From Chryseolinea soli (lineage in GTDB: Bacteria > Bacteroidota > Bacteroidia > Cytophagales > Cyclobacteriaceae), in NCBI RefSeq assembly GCF_003589925.1, contig NZ_CP032382.1, positions 3,100,001 through 3,164,000 on the forward strand: a stretch of 64,000 nt of DNA, given 5' to 3'. A model generated the notes under the pieces. That model was not told where the DNA came from, did not search any database, and saw nothing but the letters and a program-made list of their open reading frames with translations. This document shows, one piece after another, positions 50,023-63,340 of the stretch (position 1 is the first letter of the stretch; the number at the start of each line of letters is the position of its first letter). Position numbers and translations under genes: made by a program.

Positions 50023-50144
50023 GAAACACGATGTTGAACGGCTTTTGTCTATGGTAGAATTTTAGTTTGGGTAACAGGTAAGGGCCGGCTAGATGTTTGA
50101 ATCAAGCATTCCGGCTCCTTCCTTTTTTTGACAACGCCGGTTAT

Positions 50145-51908
50145 ATGCGCTACATCTTTATCGCTTCCATTTTTATCTTCTCGTTAATATCCTGTCACAA
50201 AACACCACCCCAGTCCCGGGGTTCTGTGGCCGGCGTGATGGACACGGTGATCAGCCGGCTCTATGCCAACGTTCCGGAAGCGGAGTTTAACAAGATCGAC
50301 GACGCCTTTATGCGCCAATTTGTGACCGATGAAGAGCGACAGGTGCTGGCGACGCGCTACCAGTATTTTACCGCGGACGTTCCGGTCACGGTGTCCATCA
50401 TGCGCGACAAAGGCCAGGCCGTTGTTCCGTTTTGGTTGGAGCCGGCAGGGTTTGCAAAAACGACCCTGGAGGTGAAGAACGAGGAGTATACCTACGAGGT
50501 ATGGCAAAAAAATTTCCCGGCCGGTCAGGTCGCGCTGGGCATCAATGGTTTTGACAAACATCGTCCCGTCTATTTCGTGAGTGTTGCACCCCAGAACAAA
50601 GGAGAGCATCTCGCCCTGACGGGAATATATCCCGGCTACCCCGTAGACACGTTGCGCGTGGGAGCGTTCACCTATCACGACTGGTCGGGCCTGGTAATCA
50701 CGGAAGTTCCCGAAGCCTTGCAAGGCCAGGCATTGTTCACCACGGTTCGGGGCCGGGCACGCGAGGCGCATGTGGTGGACGCCTTTCGGAAAACGCAGTT
50801 TCCGTCTCATGCCGAACCCGACCAAATTCTGCTGACCTGGAGCGCCTCACCCCAAACCAGCATCGACGTACAATGGCGCACCGCCCCTTCCGTTGCCCAG
50901 GGATCGGTGAAGTATTGGGTGGAAGGGACAACCGACACGTTGGTCACAAAAGCGTCCCTGAACCAAATCCAGGACCGCATGCTGTTCAATGACCGGTACG
51001 TCAACCGTTTCACGGCGCAACTCGCCAATTTGCGCCCCGGCACGCACTACGGCTACTGCGTGGGCGCAGGCTTGGGGTGGTCGACGGCGCGATCGTTCCG
51101 GACGGAAGGGGAGAAAACCGATGACTTCACCTTCGTGTGGTTTGGCGATACACATTGCTTTCCCGATTCGGGTAAGCTGGTGTCGTTGGCTGACAAGAAC
51201 AATAAAGACGCAGCATTCTATTCCATCGCCGGCGACATTGTGAGCACGGGCCTCAACCGCGACGACTGGGACCACCTGTTTGGCTATTCGCACGATGTGT
51301 TCTCACGCAAGCCCTTGATGCCCGTGCCCGGGAATCACGACCGGCAAGACGGTTTAGGCGCGCAGCTTTACTACGACCTGTTTAGTTTGCCCAAAAATGC
51401 GCCCCGCGGCGTCGACCAGGAATCGAGCTATGCTTTTGAATATGGCAACGCGCTTTTTATCATGATCGACGCCACCTCCGAAGTCGATGCCCACACACCG
51501 TGGATCGAAGAGCAACTGGCCAACACCAAGGCTACCTGGAAGTTTGTGATGTTTCATTTTCCACCCTACAATTTTGAAGAACCGTATCTCGATATTCAAA
51601 AGGCTTGGGTTCCCCTTTTTGACAAATATCATGTCGACATGGTTTTGGGTGGACACATTCACTACTACATGCGCTCCAACCCGATGTTTGCCGGAAAGGT
51701 GGTGGACAACTTTGGCAAGGGTACGGTATATGCCATCTCCATCAGCATTCCCAGCAAGCATGACGCCATGACACCGGAATCCTATGCCGTGAAACAATAT
51801 GACCGTGGATACTTTTATCAGCGCATGGAAATTCATGACAAGTCGCTCACCTATACTGCCGTGGACAGTGAGGGCGCGGTAAAGGATACGTTCACCATTC
51901 GAAAATAG
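50145..51908 (+). CDS. Purple-acid-phosphatase-like metallophosphoesterase lipoprotein
   Basis: A 587-residue exported lipoprotein (FSLISC lipobox; ATG at 50145 preferred to a TTG at 50097). After about 200 residues of unknown fold comes a fibronectin-III-like domain (ILLTWSASPQTSIDVQWRT) and a calcineurin-type phosphoesterase: D335-x-H337 (WFGDTHCF), IAGDIVSTG, G396-N-H-D399, HFPPYN and G502-G-H-I-H506. This layout matches purple acid phosphatases, but no tyrosine ligand diagnostic of them is certain. Probably a surface or periplasmic phosphatase. It is the first gene of a co-oriented run to the end of the window. Confidence 0.88.
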   Translation: MRYIFIASIFIFSLISCHKTPPQSRGSVAGVMDTVISRLYANVPEAEFNKIDDAFMRQFVTDEERQVLATRYQYFTADVPVTVSIMRDKGQAVVPFWLEPAGFAKTTLEVKNEEYTYEVWQKNFPAGQVALGINGFDKHRPVYFVSVAPQNKGEHLALTGIYPGYPVDTLRVGAFTYHDWSGLVITEVPEALQGQALFTTVRGRAREAHVVDAFRKTQFPSHAEPDQILLTWSASPQTSIDVQWRTAPSVAQGSVKYWVEGTTDTLVTKASLNQIQDRMLFNDRYVNRFTAQLANLRPGTHYGYCVGAGLGWSTARSFRTEGEKTDDFTFVWFGDTHCFPDSGKLVSLADKNNKDAAFYSIAGDIVSTGLNRDDWDHLFGYSHDVFSRKPLMPVPGNHDRQDGLGAQLYYDLFSLPKNAPRGVDQESSYAFEYGNALFIMIDATSEVDAHTPWIEEQLANTKATWKFVMFHFPPYNFEEPYLDIQKAWVPLFDKYHVDMVLGGHIHYYMRSNPMFAGKVVDNFGKGTVYAISISIPSKHDAMTPESYAVKQYDRGYFYQRMEIHDKSLTYTAVDSEGAVKDTFTIRK

Positions 51909-52093: not shown

Positions 52094-54343
52094 ATGACAC
52101 AACGATTTTTTCTACTGTTGTCGTGTGCATGCTGGTTTGCCTGCAAGCAGAATGCCCCGGCGCCTTCCGCCCCCACCGAAACGACTGTGTTTCACGATAC
52201 CGTGTTTTTGCAGGAATATCACGAAGGCTATCCCACTCCCGCGAGCGTTGGCGAAGTGCGAAGCCTCGTGGTGGATGATAAAGCCAACGTGTGGATCGCT
52301 ACGCCGGCGGGAGTGTTTGTGAAAAAGAACAACGCCATGACGTGGGAAGCGGCACTGCCGGCCGCCGAACAAGGCCCCGCGTTTTCGGTAGCGATAGACC
52401 AGGACTCGGCGGTCTGGATGAGCACGTGGAAGGCTGTGTTTAGAATGAAGCATGATGTGGTTTCGAAAAGGGAAGGCGCCACACCGCCACTAAGTGTACT
52501 GTGCCCCGCGAAGGAGGGAATGTATGCCGCTGGCCCCAGAGGGGTCTGGCTCTTTAAAGGTGAAGGATGCGAGAAAAAGAACTACGCCGTTGCGCGCTCC
52601 ATCCGCGACGTGGCCTCCGATGGCGACGGAGGGTTGTGGCTTGCAACGGATGTGGGCTTATATCATGCCGGGCAGGACAGCACGCAACATTTCGTGGATA
52701 CGACCGATGTGTTGAGCGCCTACATTCGTGGTGTTGGGTTGGCGAATGGCGGGCAGGTTTGGGCTGGAGGACTTGGCGGCGTCACGGTATTGCAGAACGG
52801 CAAGAAAGTAAGAACCCTTGAACCTGATGAGGGCATCCCTTCGATCAACGTGAACGCTGTACGCCGATCGCCTTCGGGCGTGATGTGGATCGGCACCGAC
52901 ATGGGTGTCGTGCGGTATGCCCAGGATCGCTCACACTCCCTGCGCTTCAGCCGGCGTTGGCTGGTCGACGACAAAGTGAATGCCGTTGCATTTGATGCCG
53001 ATGGAAACGCCTGGTTAGGCACACCGAAAGGAGTGAGCGCCATCAAAAGAAAACCCATGACACTAGCTTCCAAAGAACAATATTTCTACGATGTGTTGAT
53101 GCGCCGCCACATTCGCGAACCTTGGATCGCCGGACAATGCAGATTGCTCCAGGAAGGCGACACCACGCGCTGGAAACCGGAAGACGACGACAACGATGGC
53201 GAGTACACCAGCAACTACCTGGCGATGGAAAGCTTTCGTTATGCCGCGACCAAAAGCGAAGACGCAAAAGAAAAAGCCCGCAAAGCCTTCCGGTTTTTGA
53301 AACTCCTGCAAGAAGTGACCGAGACCGACGGCTTCTTTGCCCGCACCATCGTGCCCTCGGAATGGACGTTCTATCACGATGGAAACCGCACCTACACCGA
53401 TCGCGAGCGGGCCGACGAAGAAGTGAAAGAACCCCGCTACAAACCCGTGGAGATCCGCTGGCACAAGTCGCGCGATGGCCAGTGGATGTGGAAAGGCGAC
53501 ACCAGCAGCGACGAGATCTGCGGCCACATGTTCGGCTATTTTATTTATTACGATCTCGTGGCCGATGAGACGGAGAAAAAAGAAATCCGCGCCCACGTTT
53601 CCAAAATTGTCAGCCACCTGATGGCCCACCACTTCACGCTCACCGACATCGATGGGCAACCCACCCGCTGGGGCGTTTGGTCGCCCGACCGGTTGAATCG
53701 CGATCCCGAATGGACCCCCGACCGCAGCCTGAATTCGATGGAGGTGTTGTCGTTCCTCAAGTTTGCCCACTACATCACGGGCGAGGAGAAATTTCAGCAG
53801 GAGTATCTCCGTCTTATCCAAACGGAAGGCTACCTCGACAACATGGCCAACATTCCCCATCAAAACCCGGCGTGGTTTATCTATTTCGATGTGATCTTGT
53901 CGGCCTATCAATATCCCATCCTGTTAAAGACCGAAACCGACCCGAAGCTGAAAAAGTTTTACGAAAACCATATCGACCAATGGCTTGAACGACGCAAGGG
54001 TGATCACAACCCGTTGATCAATTTCATATATGCGTATGCGCGACAGCAGAAAAAAGAATTGCAACCGTCGGTAGCGTTCCTCACCGACACGCCACTCGAC
54101 CTGGTCGATTGGAGCATAGATCACACGAAGCGGGAAGATGTGCGTGTCGTGCATACGCCCGTGTTGGGCGAGGTGCAAGTGGACGCGTTGCCGCCGGCCA
54201 GTATTCGCGCGACAGTGCGATGGGATAAAAATCCCTGGGGCATCAACGCTGGCGATCATTTTATGGAGCGCGAGCCAGTGTTTTGGCTGCTACCCTATTG
54301 GATGGGGCGATATCTGGGGATGATCCAGGAACCGGCCAAGTGA
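52094..54343 (+). CDS. Lipoprotein with Reg_prop beta-propeller and C-terminal alpha/alpha-toroid-like domain (copy 1)
   Basis: A 749-residue exported lipoprotein (lipobox WFAC17). Residues about 50-320 hold blades of the two-component-regulator propeller type: VWIATPAGVF (66-75), LWLATDVGLY (181-190), VWAGGLGGV, MWIGTDMGVV, AWLGTPKGVS. Residues about 330-745 are mostly helical with DDDNDG (364-369), TSSDE (470-474) followed by GH (477-478), the segment DIDGQPTRWGVWSPD (518-532), and the closing LLPYWMGRYLG. The helical half looks like a six-hairpin glycosidase or lyase fold; its acidic residues could be catalytic. No known enzyme family is assigned. Paralogous to the next gene. Confidence 0.75.
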   Translation: MTQRFFLLLSCACWFACKQNAPAPSAPTETTVFHDTVFLQEYHEGYPTPASVGEVRSLVVDDKANVWIATPAGVFVKKNNAMTWEAALPAAEQGPAFSVAIDQDSAVWMSTWKAVFRMKHDVVSKREGATPPLSVLCPAKEGMYAAGPRGVWLFKGEGCEKKNYAVARSIRDVASDGDGGLWLATDVGLYHAGQDSTQHFVDTTDVLSAYIRGVGLANGGQVWAGGLGGVTVLQNGKKVRTLEPDEGIPSINVNAVRRSPSGVMWIGTDMGVVRYAQDRSHSLRFSRRWLVDDKVNAVAFDADGNAWLGTPKGVSAIKRKPMTLASKEQYFYDVLMRRHIREPWIAGQCRLLQEGDTTRWKPEDDDNDGEYTSNYLAMESFRYAATKSEDAKEKARKAFRFLKLLQEVTETDGFFARTIVPSEWTFYHDGNRTYTDRERADEEVKEPRYKPVEIRWHKSRDGQWMWKGDTSSDEICGHMFGYFIYYDLVADETEKKEIRAHVSKIVSHLMAHHFTLTDIDGQPTRWGVWSPDRLNRDPEWTPDRSLNSMEVLSFLKFAHYITGEEKFQQEYLRLIQTEGYLDNMANIPHQNPAWFIYFDVILSAYQYPILLKTETDPKLKKFYENHIDQWLERRKGDHNPLINFIYAYARQQKKELQPSVAFLTDTPLDLVDWSIDHTKREDVRVVHTPVLGEVQVDALPPASIRATVRWDKNPWGINAGDHFMEREPVFWLLPYWMGRYLGMIQEPAK

Positions 54344-54461
54344 CGATCCGCGAAGACGAACGCGTCATTGCGCAAATGCATCCCTGATAAACGTGAAATC
54401 CTCACGGGAGACGTATGGTTTTTAACAATCTTGTTGATCTTTAAACTGAAACGCTCATTCC

Positions 54462-56687
54462 ATGAAATATGCGCCGTGGACCTTCGTCCTGATCTCGATT
54501 CTCTTTCAAGCCTGTAAACCAGACGCCCCTGCCAAGGCACCCGTTACCCAACCCATCCACTCCGACGTGGCCTTTACTCAGGACTACAGCATCAAGTACG
54601 GTCTTGCGGGGGAAGGGATCACGTTGAAGAATGTGGTGAGCGACCGCAATGGTGTGATCCAGGTTTTTTCGTCGGCGGGTTTGCTGAAACCTTTCGCGGG
54701 AAGTTTTCTCTACCCCGGGACGCTGGTGCCCGATCGCTCCTATCGGCCGTTGGCGGATAAAAAGATCAGGGGGCTGGAGGTCTGTGAACATCAGTTTGTC
54801 TACGTCGACGACAAAGCTGTGCTGGCCAACGCCTGGGCTGGTGAATTGTTTATGCCGCATACCCTCCCCATGGTCACGCGCTTCAAAGGAAATCGTGAAG
54901 GATTTCTGCTTTCGGATGGGCAGCAGCTGGAGTACGTTGTAAATGGAAAGTCGCTGTGGAAGGAAAAGCATACCGAAAACATTCTGGACATGGCCTACGA
55001 TGAAAACGCCGGTAGGTTTTGGTTGCTCACGGCCAGTTCCCTGCAATCATTCTCCACGAAAGATCATGTGTTGAACACGGTTTTTTTAGGGAAGGACCTT
55101 ACCAGCTTTACCCTCACCGAAAAAGGAAAACAGGCGGTGATCGGAACACGCGAAGGATACATCGTGATCGATCTCACCTCGGCAACTCAAAAAGGCGAAC
55201 GCCAGACAAAACTCCCCTGGACGGAGATTACTTGTGTGAGAACGATCGGTGATGTCCTGTGGTTTGGAACCACACGGGGTGCTTTCAAAGTACGCAGCGA
55301 TGGAAAGTTTGATTATTACGCCTCCAAGCGTTGGCTCCCCAGCGATCGCGTGGTCGATATCGCCGAAGGGCCGGAAGGCTCCATCCTGATCCTGACCGAT
55401 CTGGGGCTGGGACAAATCGTGTTCAAAAAAATGACCCTTCACGAGAAGGCCGACTATTTCGAGCGACAGGTTCGCGCGCGCCACATCCGACACGGCTTCA
55501 ATGCCACGCTGGGCTACATGAAAGACGGCAGCCTGGCCACGGGTTCGCTGGAAGACTCCGACAACGACGGATTGTGGACGTCCATGTATCTGGGCGCAGA
55601 AGTATTTCGCTATGCGGTTACCAAGTCGGACGACGCCCTGCAAAATATTCGCGAGGCCACCGAGGCGATGGAGCGGTTGTATTCCATCAATGAATTGAAG
55701 GGATTTCCGTCGCGGTCATTCGAACGGAGAGGCTATAAGTATGATGACAAACCCTGGCGCCGTGCGAGCGATCCCGAGTGGGATTGGAAATCGACCACGA
55801 GCAGCGACGAAGCCATCGGTCACATCTTTGCCTTTGGCGTGATGGCCGAACTGTTGGAAGACCAGGATCTGAAACATCGCGCCGTCACCCTCATCGACTC
55901 CTTGATGCAACATGTGCTCGACAATAACCTCTACCTGGTGGATTGGGATGGCAAGCCCACCGTATGGGGAAAATGGAACCCCGACTATGTGAACCAACGG
56001 CCCTTTGGTGTCGGCGACCGGAAGATCAACTCGTCCAACATCATCGCCATGTTGCAAACGGCTTACCATTTTACAAAAAAAGAACCGTACAAGACAAAAG
56101 CCTTTGAGCTGATGGAGAAGTATGGTTACTTCAAAAACCTGATGTACCCCATGAGCAAGATCGGCATGGCCGCGCCGGATGCCGACGACTGGAGCAAGAT
56201 GCTGTCGGAGGCGTGGAACCATTCGGATGATGAAATGTATTTTGTAGGCTATTGGGGCTTGTATCGTTATGCATTGAACGACACGCTGAAGACGCGTTTT
56301 AAAGAATCGATCATCGACCACTGGCAGGCGGAGCGGCCCGAGAAAGAAGGCGCGTGGAATATTTTCACCGCTCTCACGGGCACGCCCGAATTCGATCTGA
56401 ACGAGGCGGTTTGGTACCTGCAAGAATATCCCCTGGACCTGATCCATTGGAACGTGTCGAATGAACACCGCCTGGACATCGCGCGCATTGAACCCAACTT
56501 TCGCAAGCAAACCCTTCGCGAGGTGCTGCCGCCCGACGAATTGCCCATCAGCCGCCACAACGCCAACCGCTTTGACTTGGAAGGTGGCGACAACGGTACA
56601 TCGGAATACAGCGCCGGCGACATTTGGTTGTTGCCCTACTGGATGGGACGCTACCTTGGGGTGATCAGTGCGCCGGTTGAAAAATGA
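54462..56687 (+). CDS. Lipoprotein with beta-propeller and C-terminal alpha/alpha-toroid-like domain (copy 2)
   Basis: A 741-residue exported lipoprotein (lipobox FQAC18), tandem paralogue of the preceding gene. The first 320 residues are propeller-like but more worn (VLWFGTTRGAF at 266-276 is the best blade). The helical half aligns in place: DSDNDG (365-370), then LWTSMYLGAEVFRYAVTKS, TSSDE (446-450) with GH at 453-454, DWDGKPTVWGKWNPD and a closing LLPYWMGRYLG. Better conservation of the helical half suggests that it carries the activity. 75 bp separates it from the GH20 gene, so co-transcription is likely. Confidence 0.75.
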   Translation: MKYAPWTFVLISILFQACKPDAPAKAPVTQPIHSDVAFTQDYSIKYGLAGEGITLKNVVSDRNGVIQVFSSAGLLKPFAGSFLYPGTLVPDRSYRPLADKKIRGLEVCEHQFVYVDDKAVLANAWAGELFMPHTLPMVTRFKGNREGFLLSDGQQLEYVVNGKSLWKEKHTENILDMAYDENAGRFWLLTASSLQSFSTKDHVLNTVFLGKDLTSFTLTEKGKQAVIGTREGYIVIDLTSATQKGERQTKLPWTEITCVRTIGDVLWFGTTRGAFKVRSDGKFDYYASKRWLPSDRVVDIAEGPEGSILILTDLGLGQIVFKKMTLHEKADYFERQVRARHIRHGFNATLGYMKDGSLATGSLEDSDNDGLWTSMYLGAEVFRYAVTKSDDALQNIREATEAMERLYSINELKGFPSRSFERRGYKYDDKPWRRASDPEWDWKSTTSSDEAIGHIFAFGVMAELLEDQDLKHRAVTLIDSLMQHVLDNNLYLVDWDGKPTVWGKWNPDYVNQRPFGVGDRKINSSNIIAMLQTAYHFTKKEPYKTKAFELMEKYGYFKNLMYPMSKIGMAAPDADDWSKMLSEAWNHSDDEMYFVGYWGLYRYALNDTLKTRFKESIIDHWQAERPEKEGAWNIFTALTGTPEFDLNEAVWYLQEYPLDLIHWNVSNEHRLDIARIEPNFRKQTLREVLPPDELPISRHNANRFDLEGGDNGTSEYSAGDIWLLPYWMGRYLGVISAPVEK

Positions 56688-56762
56688 ATCCGCGAAAGGA
56701 TTGGAGCATGCCTTGTATCGTAAAAAGATATTCATAAAATTTAGAATAGACATCCCTGTTTT

Positions 56763-59384
56763 ATGAACGCCACAAACCCATACACGCTCGGCTTCTTTGT
56801 TCTCCTCCTGTTGAGCGGCACGGCGTGTCAGCCAAAAAAGAACGCACTGGCGACCACGGGCAAAATTGCTGTGTTGTGGGAACTGGTCACCAATTTCACC
56901 GGTGAAAAGGATGCATTCTATGCACGCTTTCAATTGACGAACCACAGCGATGTCAACCTGGACGATAAGAACTGGGCCCTGTTCTTCAGCATGGCCCCGC
57001 GACCGATCCTTGACAACCAAACCGAACAGCCCGCCCGCCTTCATCACATCAATGGAGATTGGTATGTGCTGAAACCAGACAAAAACTTTCATCTGCCACC
57101 CGGGGAATCGATAGATATTTTCTACCGCGGCGTGGAAGCGGTCATCAAAGAAACAGACCGGCCCCTGGGTTTGTATTTTGTTTTTTATGATGACGAGGGG
57201 AAGGAACAAAAAATTGAGAACGTCATCGAATACACCTGGAAGCCTTTCGTCAGTCCGGATCAAATTAACCGGAATGAAAAAGATGAGGAGCCGATCCCTA
57301 CGGCAGCGCTGTCTTACAAGAACAACCTCGACATGACCGATCTTTCCTCCGCCGCGGTTAAGCCGATCATTCCTTCGCCCGTTTCGCTGGTCATGGACAA
57401 AGATTCAGTCGAAGTAAATAATGCCTGGGCTATCTATTTTGAGAAGGGATTGGAGGGAGAAGCGGCCTACCTGGCCGCAGCGCTGAAAGAGGCTACCGGA
57501 CTTGATCTCAAAACGCAGTCGGGCGCCCCGCAAGGAAAGGCCATCCGGCTCCTGCAGGCACCTCTTGTTGTGAACGGAGTGGCTCACGAGGCCTACGCGT
57601 TGAATATCATGGCAAACGGCATTGACATTTCCGGGAGCGATGCCGCTGGAGTGTTCTATGGCATTCAAAGTTTGCGTGCATGCATACCGTTGAAATCCTA
57701 TGCAAGTAGATCGGGTACATTGCGGTTGCCGAAACTGCAGGTGAACGATGCTCCCCGCTTTGCGTTCCGGGGATTGCATCTAGACGTGAGCCGGAATTTT
57801 CAAACCAAAGAAACCATCCTGCGAACACTTGATCTTTTGTCGTTCTATAAGATCAACCGCTTTCTTTTCTACACCACCGAAGACGAAGGGTGGCGCCTTG
57901 AAATTAAAGATCTGCCTGAGCTGACCGACGTAGGTGCACAAAGACAACATACCTCTGGCAAAGAAGCGCCGGCGTTGCACCCGGCTTACGGTTCCGGGCC
58001 TTTTGCAAAAGAGGAGGGCCGCTTTGGTCATGGCTATTATTCGAGAACGGATTTTATCGAGATATTAAAATATGCCACCGCGCGTCACATCAAGATCATT
58101 CCCGAGGTAAACTTCCCTGGTCACGCACGGGCGGCGATCAAAGCCATGGAAGCCCGCTATGAGCGATTGATGAAGGAAGGCAAGGAAGATGAGGCGAACG
58201 AATATCGCCTCATCGATCCCGATGACAAATCGGTCTACTTATCCGCACAAGGCTACCAAGACAACGTCGTGTGCGTGGCGCGCGAGTCGGTCTTTCATTT
58301 TTATGAGAAAGTGGTGGATGAAATTGCTACGCTCTACCAGGAAGCCGGGTTGACCTTGGATGAGTTCCACACCGGCGGCGATGAAGTGCCCGAAGGCGCG
58401 TGGACAAAATCGCCGATGGCTATGGCATTGATGCGTGAGCACCCCGAGATCAAAGACCCCAAAAATTTGCAGACCTATTTTCTACGCGAGCTGGTGAAGC
58501 GGCTGAAATCGCGAAACCTCCAGCTGGATGGATGGGAAGAAGTGGCGCTCGCGAAAAAGGCGGACGGCAAATACGAACCCAACCCGGAGTTTGTCAACGC
58601 GAATGTGGTGCCCTATATCTGGAACAACATTTTCGACTATCCCGACCTGGGCTATCGATTGGCCAACGCCGGCTACAAGGTGGTGCTGTGCAACGTGTCC
58701 AACTTCTATTTTGATTTGGCGTATAGCAAGGATCCGCAGGAGCCGGGTCTGTATTGGGCCGGGTTTGTTGATACCCGTCACAGCTGGACCTTTGCGCCTT
58801 ATGATATGTTCAAGACCACGAAGAAAAACTCCCTGGGTCAAAAACTCGATCTCGAAACCGTGAAGGGGTATGAGAAGAATAAAATCATTGTAGAGCATCT
58901 AAAACCCCAGGCCCGCAAAAATATTCTTGGCCTGGAAGCACAGGTTTGGTGCGAAACCGTGAAGGGCCGCGATATGCTCGAGTACTACGTCCTTCCGAAA
59001 CTGGTAGGCTTTGCCGAAAGCGCCTGGGCAGCAGAACGCTCCTGGGAAACCGTGGACGATAAAACGCAGCGCGAAAAACTTATCCGCGACGGATGGAATG
59101 TGTTCGCCAACAGCTTGGGCAAACGGGAGCTGCCGCGTCTTCATTATTTGAATGGCGGCTATAACTATCGCGTCCCCCCGCCGGGAGCTGTCATTGAAAA
59201 TGGTGAGCTGAAAGCAAATGTCGAATATCCTGGATTGACTATACACTACACGACAGACGGAACCGAGCCGACCATCGCCTCACCGCGCTATGAAAAACCC
59301 GTCGCCGTGAAAGGTCCCGTGGTCTTGAGAAGCTTTGATGACGCCGGCAAAGGGAGTCACCGGGTCAACGTGTCGTCCGAATGA
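56763..59384 (+). CDS. GH20 beta-N-acetylhexosaminidase lipoprotein
   Basis: An 873-residue exported glycosidase (lipobox GTAC) that would release terminal GlcNAc or GalNAc from glycans, chitobiose-like substrates or glycoconjugates. Domain order: chitobiase-type carbohydrate-binding N-domain (about residues 30-165; ARFQLTNHSDVNLDDKNWAL), GH20b (about 195-310), the GH20 TIM barrel (about 320-770) with FRGLHLDVSRNFQ and the catalytic pair D540-E541 in FHTGGDEVPEGAW, and a chitobiase C-terminal domain (YTTDGTEPT). It is the only clear glycoside hydrolase here and indicates an amino-sugar substrate for the surrounding locus. Confidence 0.94.
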   Translation: MNATNPYTLGFFVLLLLSGTACQPKKNALATTGKIAVLWELVTNFTGEKDAFYARFQLTNHSDVNLDDKNWALFFSMAPRPILDNQTEQPARLHHINGDWYVLKPDKNFHLPPGESIDIFYRGVEAVIKETDRPLGLYFVFYDDEGKEQKIENVIEYTWKPFVSPDQINRNEKDEEPIPTAALSYKNNLDMTDLSSAAVKPIIPSPVSLVMDKDSVEVNNAWAIYFEKGLEGEAAYLAAALKEATGLDLKTQSGAPQGKAIRLLQAPLVVNGVAHEAYALNIMANGIDISGSDAAGVFYGIQSLRACIPLKSYASRSGTLRLPKLQVNDAPRFAFRGLHLDVSRNFQTKETILRTLDLLSFYKINRFLFYTTEDEGWRLEIKDLPELTDVGAQRQHTSGKEAPALHPAYGSGPFAKEEGRFGHGYYSRTDFIEILKYATARHIKIIPEVNFPGHARAAIKAMEARYERLMKEGKEDEANEYRLIDPDDKSVYLSAQGYQDNVVCVARESVFHFYEKVVDEIATLYQEAGLTLDEFHTGGDEVPEGAWTKSPMAMALMREHPEIKDPKNLQTYFLRELVKRLKSRNLQLDGWEEVALAKKADGKYEPNPEFVNANVVPYIWNNIFDYPDLGYRLANAGYKVVLCNVSNFYFDLAYSKDPQEPGLYWAGFVDTRHSWTFAPYDMFKTTKKNSLGQKLDLETVKGYEKNKIIVEHLKPQARKNILGLEAQVWCETVKGRDMLEYYVLPKLVGFAESAWAAERSWETVDDKTQREKLIRDGWNVFANSLGKRELPRLHYLNGGYNYRVPPPGAVIENGELKANVEYPGLTIHYTTDGTEPTIASPRYEKPVAVKGPVVLRSFDDAGKGSHRVNVSSE

Positions 59385-59938
59385 GGTGTCCTTGTGCGAA
59401 ATGAAATTTATGAACACCATCCGCAGCAAACCTCCAGCCTAAACGTCATCAAATGATGACCCTCGCAGAATCACAGTATAGCCTCTGCCCGGTACAGTGG
59501 GCTTAATGTCCGACCCGGCTCACTTTTGGACAACGTCGTGAACATAAATTTCCAAAATCATCAACATACGATTGGATGTGCCATTTAAGGCCACTTCCGG
59601 TATTTTGGCCACGACGTTGCACCAAGGCAAAGGAGCATTTTGCGTATCGTTTCAAGGCTATTGTAAAGATTTGAAAATCATTATATTAAGCCCGTATTAA
59701 ATATTCCACTCTTGCGCAAACCCTGCCTCGGTTGACGCAAAATGCGCGCACACTGCACACAATAAATGACCAGCTTTAGATAAGCATCCTGCGGTTACCG
59801 GAATTGGAGCAGAAAGGGACCGTTGCCTAAACGGAGGATCACTTGAAAAAAATGCCCTTTTTTTCAACGCCCAAGAAAAAACCAGATGACATCAAACGAG
59901 CAAAAACTAACTCTGATATAATTAACCCCCATCTCCCC
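59385..59938 (+). other. Long upstream region of the SusC gene
   Basis: 554 bp between the GH20 and SusC starts with no gene. Part of it (59843-59938) is an in-frame N-terminal extension of SusC that begins at a TTG (59843) or ATG (59852) just after a GGAGG sequence at 59833-59837. No convincing TAnnTTTG box is seen. Confidence 0.4.
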
Positions 59939-62900
59939 ATGAATGAGAAATTTTACAGTGTACAGAAAAAATGCAGGAGTTACCTGTTCTCCTGCTGCGT
60001 GATGCTGCTGCTGGCAGGCAATGCCCTGGCCAGCGCGCCCGTTGAAGTGACGGTGACCGGCAAAGTCACTTCTGCCGACGATGGAAGCTCGCTCCCGGGC
60101 GTGAACATTTACCTGAAAGGAACACAGGTGGGTACCATCACGGATGCCGATGGAAAATATTCCATCACTGCATCCGACAACAACGCGGTGATCGTGTTTT
60201 CCTACATCGGCTACACCACCCAGGAAGTATCGATCAGCGGCAGAACGGCCATCGACGTCGTGCTGCAACCCAACACCGAGTCGCTCGATGAAGTGGTGGT
60301 GACAGCCCTCGGCATTAAACGCGATGAGCGTTCGTTGGGCTACTCCGTAGGACGCGTAAACGGTAACGATCTGAATCGCATTCCGCAGGAGAACGTGCTC
60401 AATAGTTTAGCGGGCCGCGTGCCCGGCGTGACCATTTCATCCACTGGTGGTCCGGGTTCCTCTGTGAACATGGTGATCCGCGGTGCCAAGTCGCTCACCA
60501 ATAATCAGCCCCTCTTTGTCGTGGACGGCGTACCGCTCAACAACTCGATACAGAACGTGAGCGCTATCGGTTCGGACAACCGCGTGGACTATGGCAACGC
60601 GATTGCTGATTTGAACCCCGACAACATCGAATCCGTCTCCGTATTGAAAGGTGGCGCAGCTGCTGCATTGTATGGTTCACGCGCCGGAAACGGTGTGGTC
60701 ATGATCACGACAAAGACGGGTGCGAAGGCCAAGAAATTAACGGTGAACGTTTCCACTAACAACACCTTCGATGTCCCCTACAAATTCCTGGACTTCCACG
60801 ATAAATATGCCGTGGGCGTACGGCCGTATACTCCGGATGCCAATCCCTCCGGAGTGCTGACGATCGATGAAGGAACCGTAGCGGGTGTTGGTCCGCGGCT
60901 CGACCAGGGCTACAAGGCCATTCAATGGAACAGCCCCGTGGATGCCGATGGAAACAAGATTCCCACCCTATTGACGTCGCATCCCAACAACGTGAAGAAC
61001 TTTGTGCGCACCGGTATCACCTCCACCAACACGGTGTCGGTGTCGAACAGCAGCGATCAACTCACGTATCGGCTGGCCTACACCAACATGAGCAACCGCG
61101 GCATCGTGCCCAACTCGGACTTGTTTAGAAATACGTTGGACTTCAACACGTCGCTAAAGATTTCCAACAATGTCCGTTTTAGCACGAACGTTGACTTCAC
61201 CCGCAGCAACTCCAACAACCGGCCGGCCGGAAACCGCGGGACCAACCCGATCCAGTGGGCCTATTATGTTTCACCCCACATCGACATTCGCGACATGAAG
61301 AACTATTGGGTAAAGGGAAAAGAAGGCCTGCAGCAACTCACCCAAGATGATGGCGCCGGAGAGTACAACAACCCTTACTTCTTAGCCCATGAAGTGAACA
61401 ACAGTTTTGTGCGCGACCGCGTCTACGGAAACGTGAAACTCGACTGGCAGATCACGAAGGACATCTCGGTGTTCGGTCGCTATTCGCTCGATACCTATAA
61501 AGAGCAACGTGAAACGAAGATCGCCAACAGCTATACCGGCGAACCGCGTGGTGCCTATGGCATCATCGACATGGACCGCCTGGAACGCAACGCTGACTTC
61601 CTGGCGACTTATAAAAAAGACATCGGCCAGTTTCACCTCAGCGTGTCGGCGGGGGGTAACGCGATGCACCAGAACTATGGCGGTGTGTCGAACGCTAGCA
61701 AGGCGGGTACTGGATTGACTGTGCCGGGTTTGTATACTATTCAGAACATCCCCCAAGCCAACCTGGAGTACAGCAGCAATCGGAATAAGAAATCGATCTA
61801 CAGCATTTACGGAACGTCTACGCTCGGATACAAAGACATGGTCTATCTGGATCTAACCGCACGCAACGACTGGTCGAGCACCTTGCCACCAGAAAGCCGC
61901 TCCTATTTTTATCCTTCGGCTTCCTTGAGTGTGTTGGTGAATGAAATGGTACACATTTCCGATGATCTCAGCATGTTGAAGTTGCGGGCCGCCGTGTCGA
62001 AAGTGGGTAACGACACACAACCGTACCAGCTCTACAATATCCTCGACAATTATGCAGCCTGGGATGGAACACCGCGGCTCGGTAAGTCCTCCAACATCCT
62101 CACTAGTAATCTGAAACCGGAGATGCTCACCACATCCGAATTTGGGTTGGAATTGGGCCTCTTTAACAACCGCGTGCGTTTCGAGGGTACGTATTATAAA
62201 ATGGACAGCCGAAACCAAATCTTTTCCACCGCGCTGGCGCCTTCCAGTGGATTTGAATCGCGCAAGATCAACTCGGGGCTCCTCGTCAGCAAAGGCATCG
62301 AGTTGAGTGCCGGCGCCACTGTGGTGGAGAACGGCAACTGGCGGTGGGATGTCAATGTGAACTACAGCCGCAACCGGACGAAGCTCATGGAGCTGTCGGG
62401 TGGTGATAAATTTTATACGTTCTGGACCGATGGAAAAGGTGGATCGTGGACCTATGTCGGTGAAGAGATCGGCGATCTCTACGATGCGAAGCTGGTAACC
62501 GTGGAAGACAAGAACTCTCCGTACTACGGCTACCCGCTGCTGGATGACGAAGGATCATGGCAGAGCGTGAGTGCCGGCGATACCAAAAATAAGATCGGTA
62601 ACTACAATCCCGATTTCCTGATGGGCATGCAATCTACCTTGTCCTACAAAGCGTTTACGCTCAACCTTTCGTTCGACTGGCGTCAGGGCGGTCAATTCAT
62701 TTCACAAACCTATCGTTATGCCGAGTCCGATCTCAAGACGCAACGGTGGCTCGATCAGTTGATCAACCCCGGCAACATGACGGGCGATGCGCTTCGCGAT
62801 TACCTGGTGGCCAATGCAGACCAGGACATCAAGAACGGCTTTCACATTGTGGGCGGCCCCGGCCCGGAATATGGCGGACATCCCCTGGGTGACCTGGGCG

Positions 62901-63340
62901 ATGGCGTGACGCTCAACGACGGTGTTTTCAATCCCGGTGTGATCGCACAATATGATGCCGATGGAAACATCACAGGCTATACAGAAAACCTCGGCGGCCC
63001 GGATACTAAATACATTCCCTTCGCCGACAACTATCCCTGGAGCTTTATGAAGCCCGCCATGTTTGATGCGTCATTCATTAAGCTGCGCGAGATCTCGTTG
63101 GGCTATCAATTGCCGAAGACCTTTATCAGTAGCCTCGGACTTCAAAGTGCCAGCTTCTCGCTGTATGCACGCAACCTGATGCTGTGGACCAAAGCCAAGA
63201 TCGGCGTCGATCCGGAGTTGGCGTTTCAGCCGGAAGGCAATCAACAGGGAAATAACTCGCCGTTCAAACAGGGCATCGAGCGCTACAACGTGAACCCCTG
63301 GACGGTCTCCACAGGATTTAAATTGAGTCTGACGTTTTAA
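59939..63340 (+). CDS. SusC/RagA family TonB-dependent outer-membrane receptor
   Basis: An 1133-residue outer-membrane importer. The ATG at 59939 gives a normal signal peptide (SYLFSCCVMLLLAGNALASA). A carboxypeptidase-regulatory domain follows (VTGKVTSADDGSSLPGVNIY, YIGYTTQEV), then the DEVVVTALGIKR TonB-box region, the plug (GRVPGVTISSTGGPGSSVNM, FVVDGVPLNN) and the 22-strand barrel ending TGFKLSLTF. It is expected to pair with the SusD-like lipoprotein 20 bp downstream to import an oligosaccharide or peptide. The long upstream extension, including GGAGG, leaves the start slightly open. Confidence 0.95.
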   Translation: MNEKFYSVQKKCRSYLFSCCVMLLLAGNALASAPVEVTVTGKVTSADDGSSLPGVNIYLKGTQVGTITDADGKYSITASDNNAVIVFSYIGYTTQEVSISGRTAIDVVLQPNTESLDEVVVTALGIKRDERSLGYSVGRVNGNDLNRIPQENVLNSLAGRVPGVTISSTGGPGSSVNMVIRGAKSLTNNQPLFVVDGVPLNNSIQNVSAIGSDNRVDYGNAIADLNPDNIESVSVLKGGAAAALYGSRAGNGVVMITTKTGAKAKKLTVNVSTNNTFDVPYKFLDFHDKYAVGVRPYTPDANPSGVLTIDEGTVAGVGPRLDQGYKAIQWNSPVDADGNKIPTLLTSHPNNVKNFVRTGITSTNTVSVSNSSDQLTYRLAYTNMSNRGIVPNSDLFRNTLDFNTSLKISNNVRFSTNVDFTRSNSNNRPAGNRGTNPIQWAYYVSPHIDIRDMKNYWVKGKEGLQQLTQDDGAGEYNNPYFLAHEVNNSFVRDRVYGNVKLDWQITKDISVFGRYSLDTYKEQRETKIANSYTGEPRGAYGIIDMDRLERNADFLATYKKDIGQFHLSVSAGGNAMHQNYGGVSNASKAGTGLTVPGLYTIQNIPQANLEYSSNRNKKSIYSIYGTSTLGYKDMVYLDLTARNDWSSTLPPESRSYFYPSASLSVLVNEMVHISDDLSMLKLRAAVSKVGNDTQPYQLYNILDNYAAWDGTPRLGKSSNILTSNLKPEMLTTSEFGLELGLFNNRVRFEGTYYKMDSRNQIFSTALAPSSGFESRKINSGLLVSKGIELSAGATVVENGNWRWDVNVNYSRNRTKLMELSGGDKFYTFWTDGKGGSWTYVGEEIGDLYDAKLVTVEDKNSPYYGYPLLDDEGSWQSVSAGDTKNKIGNYNPDFLMGMQSTLSYKAFTLNLSFDWRQGGQFISQTYRYAESDLKTQRWLDQLINPGNMTGDALRDYLVANADQDIKNGFHIVGGPGPEYGGHPLGDLGDGVTLNDGVFNPGVIAQYDADGNITGYTENLGGPDTKYIPFADNYPWSFMKPAMFDASFIKLREISLGYQLPKTFISSLGLQSASFSLYARNLMLWTKAKIGVDPELAFQPEGNQQGNNSPFKQGIERYNVNPWTVSTGFKLSLTF

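Follow-up and report, generated by a model that had tools for sequence, protein, structure and literature searches.

A tandem pair of propeller-toroid proteins in Chryseolinea soli as candidate glycoside hydrolases of an unnamed family

Two adjacent genes for propeller-toroid proteins

The window analysed here is a stretch of 64,000 nucleotides from the genome of Chryseolinea soli (assembly GCF_003589925.1, contig NZ_CP032382.1, positions 3,100,001 to 3,164,000 of the forward strand). It contains two adjacent genes, termed copy 1 and copy 2, which are separated by 118 bases and whose products combine a beta-propeller with a helical half predicted to fold as an (alpha/alpha)6 toroid. The two genes and their parts are given below; unless stated otherwise, residue numbers in the text are those of copy 1.

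52094..54343, plus strand: copy 1, propeller-toroid protein, open reading frame of 749 amino acids (Pfam Reg_prop 3e-11)
52190..53047, plus strand: copy 1, propeller half, approximately residues 33-318 (Reg_prop; sequence match to the 3v9f and 4a2l propellers; boundary set by alignments)
53048..54340, plus strand: copy 1, predicted (alpha/alpha)6 toroid half, residues 319-749
53183..53200, plus strand: copy 1, DxDNDG, residues 364-369, loop before toroid helix 2
53501..53515, plus strand: copy 1, TSSDE, residues 470-474, start of toroid helix 4
53888..53890, plus strand: copy 1, D599, second candidate for a catalytic acid, at the beginning of toroid helix 8 (model helix 280-295 corresponds to residues 598-613)
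54287..54319, plus strand: copy 1, LLPYWMGRYLG, residues 732-742, last toroid helix
54462..56687, plus strand: copy 2, propeller-toroid protein, open reading frame of 741 amino acids (full-length AlphaFold2 model, pLDDT 94.5, pTM 0.91)
54573..55433, plus strand: copy 2, propeller, approximately residues 38-324, 28 strands forming seven blades of four
55422..56684, plus strand: copy 2, residues 321-741, toroid half (from alignment A3 and the helices of the full-length model)
55554..55571, plus strand: copy 2, DxDNDG, residues 365-370 (sequence)
55797..55811, plus strand: copy 2, TSSDE, residues 446-450 (sequence)
56226..56228, plus strand: copy 2, D589, equivalent of D599 of copy 1, within HSDDEM (alignment)
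56628..56660, plus strand: copy 2, LLPYWMGRYLG, residues 723-733 (sequence)

Both reading frames were recovered with the ends and lengths given in the first-pass annotation of this DNA, and all motifs quoted there, including DxDGxPTxWGxWxPD (residues 518-532 in copy 1 and 494-508 in copy 2), lie at matching positions. The two proteins align over their full length (BLASTP, 249 bits, E 2e-76, 27% identity). Their designation as lipoproteins is only partly borne out: a loose lipobox pattern is present in both copies, as well as in 80 of the 120 listed relatives of copy 2 and 71 of the 120 listed relatives of copy 1, but the signals W-F-A-C and F-Q-A-C are plausible rather than textbook. A Reg_prop-type propeller had been assigned to both proteins; Pfam detected it in copy 1, whereas the propeller of copy 2 was recognised by structure only.

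Predicted fold of the helical half

The fold of the proteins is a confident prediction (AlphaFold2, pLDDT ~94). The full-length model of copy 2 comprises a seven-bladed propeller, which is followed by an (alpha/alpha)6 toroid. Propellers took up the list of matches to the full-length model, and a separate model of the toroid was therefore used to assess that part. This toroid fold occurs in GH76, GH116 and the cellobiose 2-epimerases, with identities of 6-13% to the present toroid, and no close structural relative was found among the fold-search matches listed. An alpha/alpha-toroid fold as in glycosidases or lyases had been guessed earlier, and the prediction agrees with it, as (alpha/alpha)6 toroids are found in glycosidases, lyases and sugar epimerases.

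For copy 2 as a whole and for the helical half of copy 1, no Pfam match exceeded the cut-off, and neither protein had an NCBIfam match above its cut-off. An NCBIfam scan of the 88 family members described below yielded a best E of 0.004, which was read as chance. When the profile of the helical half was compared with the sequences of solved structures, two matches only were obtained (E 0.92 and 1.9). Hence, neither a non-catalytic family nor a family of characterised enzymes claimed the helical half in the structure, Pfam and NCBIfam searches made.

Conservation and candidate active site

The helical half is more conserved than the propeller, as had been proposed from the two sequences. Between copy 1 and copy 2 the identity is 30% in the helical half and 21% in the propeller; over 2,485 pairs (71 rows of alignment A4) the mean values are 44% and 29%, and the helical value was the higher one in 2,484 pairs.

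Conserved positions were taken from alignment A3, which contains 88 toroids, namely the two copies of the window and 86 domains left from 123 candidates after similar sequences had been thinned out. These candidates were the ones of 137 domains with more than 30 bits that passed a length and score filter, at which matches cut by a frame or contig end and partial matches dropped out. Sixteen positions are invariant in A3, and D366, D368, S471, D473 and Y735 are present in all 88 sequences. D599 is present in 86 sequences, E474 in 83 (Gln in 5), H478 in 82 (Gln or Tyr in 6), and D518 and D520 in 78 each. E474 and H478 are both replaced by Gln in five rows of one clade; Asn replaces G369 in five of the 88 rows, and two rows shown of the Gln clade read DSDN at this site.

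In the model, the helices alternate with long loops (odd to even helix) and short turns (even to odd helix). The long-loop face, with 234 of the 431 residues, holds 12 of the 16 invariant residues (~8.7 expected) and 12 of the 13 conserved Asp and Glu residues, and the short-turn face (40 residues) holds none of the invariant ones.

A second unnamed family consists of toroids without a propeller. Its query is a protein of 407 amino acids with a signal-like start (L092:7449-8672, also L093:5530-6753), for which 296 clusters were obtained at E ≤ 0.001; in L092 the gene adjoins a GH127 gene and a gene for an FGE-like protein. It is a true relative of the family in A3 (hhalign 99.9%). Alignment A9 of this class (17 rows; the query and 16 of 120 listed relatives) was mapped on A3. 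The core common to both classes comprises R417, W456, W466, S471, D473, D518/D520, G521, T524, W526, S548, Y580, D599, Y735, W736, G738 and R739. D473 and D599 are each kept in all 17 rows, and position 474 is Lys in all 17. D366, D368, R341 and E474 are confined to the propeller-bearing class, and the DxDNDG motif is not kept in the stand-alone relatives.

Because they are kept in A3 as well as in the stand-alone toroids, D473 and D599, together with D518/D520, are the acids common to both classes, and judged from the alignments D473 and D599 appear to be the best candidates for catalysis. The first-pass annotation had pointed to D473 and E474. The first of these residues stands; E474 is not universal, and the two as the sole catalytic pair were dropped.

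The two copies form an old pair

In a maximum-likelihood tree of the 88 toroids, two clades were separated with a support of 100/100, one containing copy 1 and the other copy 2, and each copy groups beside its counterpart from Chryseolinea serpens. A recent tandem duplication was rejected, as the branches between the clades are long (1.26 and 0.3) and both clades recur as neighbours. The genome scan gave at least 260 confirmed matches, of which the best 80 yielded 79 loci. Both copy types occur in 43 of these loci. At 42 of them the two copies closest to each other share a strand, and at 39 of the 43 copy 1 precedes copy 2. The pair is ancient and has been retained.

At some loci there is a third, copy-2-like gene, and fusions of it with copy 2 are seen in L029, in L030 and in the metagenomic protein P0011. 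The third copy-2-like clade with Gln at the positions of E474 and H478 is represented by L006:16913-19132, L017:14389-16782, L029, L030 and L074:16889-19120; judging by these substitutions, it is perhaps inactive.

Size and spread of the family

The searches covered 5.8 billion proteins; about 8,000 candidates were scored each time, and the best 120 of each list were viewed. For copy 2, 4,396 clusters were obtained at E ≤ 0.001, the best 120 covering 95-100% of the protein, and for copy 1 there were 2,187 clusters, the best 120 covering 90-100%. None of the 120 listed relatives of copy 2 has a precomputed Pfam domain. It is likely that the family comprises thousands of protein clusters, with the reservation that the two sets may overlap and that part of their tails may match via the propeller alone.

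The genome of C. soli itself contains two members, copies 1 and 2. Most of the 79 loci are from Bacteroidota, and others are labelled Hydrogenedentota, Verrucomicrobiota, Planctomycetota, Armatimonadota, Chlorobiota and Nitrospirota; most of the non-Bacteroidota rows are metagenome bins, whose labels may be wrong. A count of 214 of 296 genomes with a full-length profile was discarded, since most of the matches shown span the propeller part only, and was repeated with the helical half. The latter was detected at E ≤ 1e-20 in 19 of 194 sampled genomes of the order, and among those listed no other genome of the family of C. soli contained it. Therefore, the spread is patchy.

No description of the layout was found among the titles and the beginnings of abstracts listed for open-licence papers. 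According to PMC11036162, a Maribacter locus encodes a hypothetical protein that has a six-hairpin domain, and this protein may or may not be a member of the present family.

Comparison with known toroid and propeller proteins

With hhalign, A3 reached 76% for the GlcNAc (N-acetylglucosamine) 2-epimerases, 17% for GH88 and 5% for GH76, values that are rough because of the small alignments of these families (6, 10 and 11 sequences, respectively). Among these accepted separate families, the values were 91% (GH76 versus epimerase), 97% (GH88 versus GH76) and 27% (GH88 versus epimerase). Thus, the helical half is no nearer to any of those families than they can be to one another. Its assignment to GH76, GH88, GH127 or the GlcNAc 2-epimerases was rejected, since Pfam matches were absent or below the cut-off and the profile values fall within the range between families. 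PF03663, PF07221 and Glyco_hydro_88 (for GH88/GH105) gave no match in the proteins of the window and were not among the 25 of 27 families shown in the Pfam scan of the 88 members. PF07944 (GH127) matched weakly in 11 of the 88 members (best E 8e-4); ten proteins were viewed singly, and in two of them the match spans 25-31 residues and scores no more than 17 bits, compared to a cut-off of 24.9. The beta-L-arabinofuranosidases of GH127 and GH146 share the toroid fold, GH146 is among the Foldseek matches (E 0.02), and a GH127 gene lies beside the stand-alone relative, as mentioned above.

The GH76 endo-alpha-1,6-mannanases BT2949, BT3792, ShGH76 and CtGH76 have the same (alpha/alpha)6 toroid fold with 6-9% identity to the present toroid. 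They differ in their motifs, as DxDNDG, TSSDE and DGxPTxW are not present in the consensus of 11 GH76 sequences. According to PMC9213526 and PMC12295086, the retaining mechanism of GH76 employs two adjacent aspartates, the second of which is a glutamate in BT2949. D473 and E474 begin helix 4 of the toroid model, and by analogy a possible likeness to this adjacent acid pair may be taken as a lead only.

The toroid might also belong to a carbohydrate-active enzyme (CAZyme) that is not a hydrolase, i.e. a polysaccharide lyase or a sugar epimerase or isomerase akin to the GlcNAc/cellobiose 2-epimerases (PF07221). The latter have the same fold, and a Gly-His pair is located at a helix start in both; moreover, the best Foldseek matches of the toroid are epimerases, not hydrolases (E 2.9e-4). 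The catalytic residues of GlcNAc 2-epimerases are histidines. H478, present in 82 of the 88 members and replaced in six, is shifted in register in comparison to the epimerase, and no later His is conserved at ≥88%. In the profile alignment, positions 65-256 of the query are placed on positions 137-359 of the template, a shift that can arise by chance given the pseudo-symmetry of the fold, and the 76% obtained is not above the values between separate families. In contrast to the epimerases, the present proteins are secreted, fused to a propeller and encoded next to SusC and SusD; a secreted place beside GH20 and SusC would fit an epimerase poorly. We consider a lyase or an epimerase unlikely.

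The Reg_prop-type propeller is shared with the sensors of hybrid two-component systems (BT4663 type). The present proteins differ from these in that neither Pfam nor NCBIfam detected a kinase, receiver or helix-turn-helix domain in either copy, and in that a toroid follows the propeller; the initial statement that a kinase or DNA-binding part is missing is in line with these searches. Both domains could nevertheless be non-catalytic and form a glycan-binding protein of the cell surface that hands substrate over to GH20 and SusC/SusD, or else the sensor module of a pathway for signalling. The propeller is of a ligand-binding sensor type, as indicated by Reg_prop and the matches to 3v9f and 4a2l. 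A gene cluster with an extracytoplasmic function (ECF) sigma factor as its scanned representative was found at 27 of the 79 loci, and the third-copy relatives have lost E474 and H478, so that some members may be binding proteins. However, the acids, Arg and Trp residues of the toroid do not vary among rows that bear seven different phylum labels, no kinase or DNA-binding family was found, and a toroid exists as a stand-alone protein beside GH127. ECF sigma factors commonly control SusC/SusD loci, and the pair is hence not needed as a sensor. A purely non-catalytic role therefore seems improbable.

Gene neighbourhood of the pair

Three neighbouring genes within the window are listed below. The start of the phosphatase gene was set at 50142; the mechanically derived reading frame starts at TTG 50097.

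50142..51908, plus strand: purple-acid-phosphatase-like metallophosphoesterase, lipoprotein-like start, opens the run (Metallophos 3e-16, Pur_ac_phosph_N 5e-16)
56763..59384, plus strand: GH20-family protein of the beta-N-acetylhexosaminidase type, 873 amino acids (Pfam Glyco_hydro_20 6e-85)
59843..63340, plus strand: SusC/RagA-type TonB-linked outer-membrane protein (TIGR04056 1e-189)

Solved purple acid phosphatases match the product of 50142..51908 (E 1e-10). The pair belongs to a run of ten genes on one strand, which encodes the purple-acid-type phosphatase, copy 1, copy 2, GH20, SusC, SusD, a PhoPQ_related alpha/beta hydrolase, two GDPDs and BNR_2; SusD and the genes following it lie beyond the window, 3' of SusC. 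After the run, a regulator with LacI-type and AraC-type domains is encoded on the opposite strand. With adjacent SusC and SusD and glycan enzymes on one strand, the gene order is that of a polysaccharide utilisation locus. The placement in glycan breakdown, proposed at first from two flanking genes, has thus gained a stronger context by SusC, by SusD and the glycan genes beyond, and by the fusion in a relative described below.

The two adjacent GDPD-type phosphodiesterases have signal-like starts (L091:3499-5190) and are encoded in the run opened by the purple-acid-type phosphatase. This combination hints at a phosphodiester-bearing glycan as substrate. In C. serpens, an HGSNAT-type gene (L004:14695-15807) lies between copy 2 and GH20, where the window has 75 bases only (56688-56762).

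To find neighbour families at the 79 loci, phmmer was run with one or two queries per family (E ≤ 1e-15); diverged members escape such a search, and all counts are lower bounds. SusC was detected near at least 27 loci, SusD near at least 24, YdjC, BNR_2 and the Gfo/Idh/MocA type near at least 18 each, DUF3748 near at least 17, the phosphatase type near at least 11, GH20 and HGSNAT near at least 9 each, GDPD near at least 8 and the PhoPQ_related type near at least 5. A Pfam tally was made of 99 hand-picked same-strand genes of 201 around 50 of the 79 loci. As a rough yardstick, GH20 has six matches in 8.24 Mb, of which three are weak and partial; this corresponds to a chance of ~1.6% of finding one within 11 kb of a given point, compared to 8 of the 55 loci of at least 20 kb.

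GH20, YdjC and HGSNAT act on amino sugars. At least one of these families was detected near 27 of the 43 paired loci, but near 2 of the 36 unpaired ones; many loci are from the sister genera Dyadobacter, Runella and Larkinella, and the unpaired ones are often from other phyla or on short contigs, so that these are not independent events. YdjC occurs mainly in loci of Emticicia, Larkinella and Dyadobacter, GH20 mainly in those of Chitinophagaceae and Chryseolinea. In L005:12272-18356, L007, L012 and L006:12285-14538 (Emticicia, Dyadobacter, Larkinella), YdjC-like and BNR_2-type genes lie between copies 1 and 2, and a DUF3748-type gene follows copy 2 in L005, L007 and L012.

In one metagenome bin, GH20 and copy 1 are fused in a single frame of 1,408 amino acids (L030:7958-12184), and no signal peptide was seen at the seam between the two parts. 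Copy 2 and the third copy are fused at this locus as well (1,484 amino acids). The first half of the L030 frame was identified as GH20, as was a 687-amino-acid gene of L017, and the 680-amino-acid genes of L029 and L033 were interpreted likewise. The fusion argues that GH20 and copy 1 act in one place on one substrate.

The enzyme might be real and its substrate not an amino-sugar glycan, the GH20, YdjC and HGSNAT neighbours being incidental to some lineages. Since GH20 was detected near 9 of the 79 loci only, the connection to amino sugars is limited to certain lineages. At least one of the three families was found near 29 of the 79, and Gfo/Idh/MocA oxidoreductases, GH92 and DUF2961 adjoin other members. 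On the other hand, the neighbours at the 27 paired loci belong to two gene sets that differ for the most part, and there is one case of a fusion between GH20 and copy 1. Another substrate is conceivable but, in our estimation, rather unlikely.

Proposed function of the pair

The toroid most likely represents a new family of glycoside hydrolases that work as a pair. We put slightly more than even trust in the full proposal, in which copies 1 and 2 would be an ancient paralogue pair of an unnamed CAZyme family, secreted and in many cases of lipoprotein type, with the toroid as the glycoside hydrolase, and would degrade one amino-sugar glycan. Several observations weigh against it. GH20 is found near few loci, and sister genera are over-represented among them. 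Overall conservation shows no enrichment on the long-loop face, which holds 24 of 41 positions conserved at 95% and 41 of 70 at 88%, close to the ~54% expected from its size. E474 is replaced in the stand-alone relatives and in the Gln clade. The best Foldseek matches are epimerases, and the profile similarity to GH76 (5%) is not significant. Finally, we know of no activity for any member of the family.

The paralogy, the conservation, the pairing, the gene order and the one fusion are results of the analysis, and the fold is a model prediction; catalysis, the roles of the residues, the substrate and the order of steps we infer as follows. The propeller would probably serve as a platform for binding the substrate or a partner, and the toroid would carry the active site. 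The substrate may enter the funnel formed by the long odd-to-even loops, where D473 of TSSDE could be the general acid, and the base or nucleophile could be D599 or else E474 next to D473. R417, W456, W466, W526 and Y735 would line the site, and the DxDNDG loop may place a metal or the substrate. Copies 1 and 2 would act one after the other, or complement each other, in the breakdown of one amino-sugar glycan, GH20 would trim the freed beta-N-acetylhexosamines, the phosphodiesterases and the phosphatase would strip phosphate decorations, and SusC/SusD would import the products.

In C. soli, the pair shares its gene run with GH20, a purple-acid-type phosphatase and two proteins resembling glycerophosphodiesterases, and a further step may be considered, in which the proteins found a new CAZyme family and the pair forms a two-enzyme unit for a phosphate-bearing amino-sugar polymer, such as a teichoic-acid-like or glycerophosphate-decorated cell-wall glycan. 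Glycerophosphodiesterases and phosphatases of such types can attack teichoic acids. This extension is speculative, and we rate it as distinctly unlikely. If it were true, it would represent a route by which Bacteroidota eat the walls of other bacteria, with enzymes for which we found no published assay.

Proteins with this layout probably make up thousands of clusters. As neither Pfam nor NCBIfam has a model for the helical half, views of glycan turnover that build on annotation lack the chemistry of this family. The pair, the fusion with GH20 and the two conserved candidate acids make the family directly testable.
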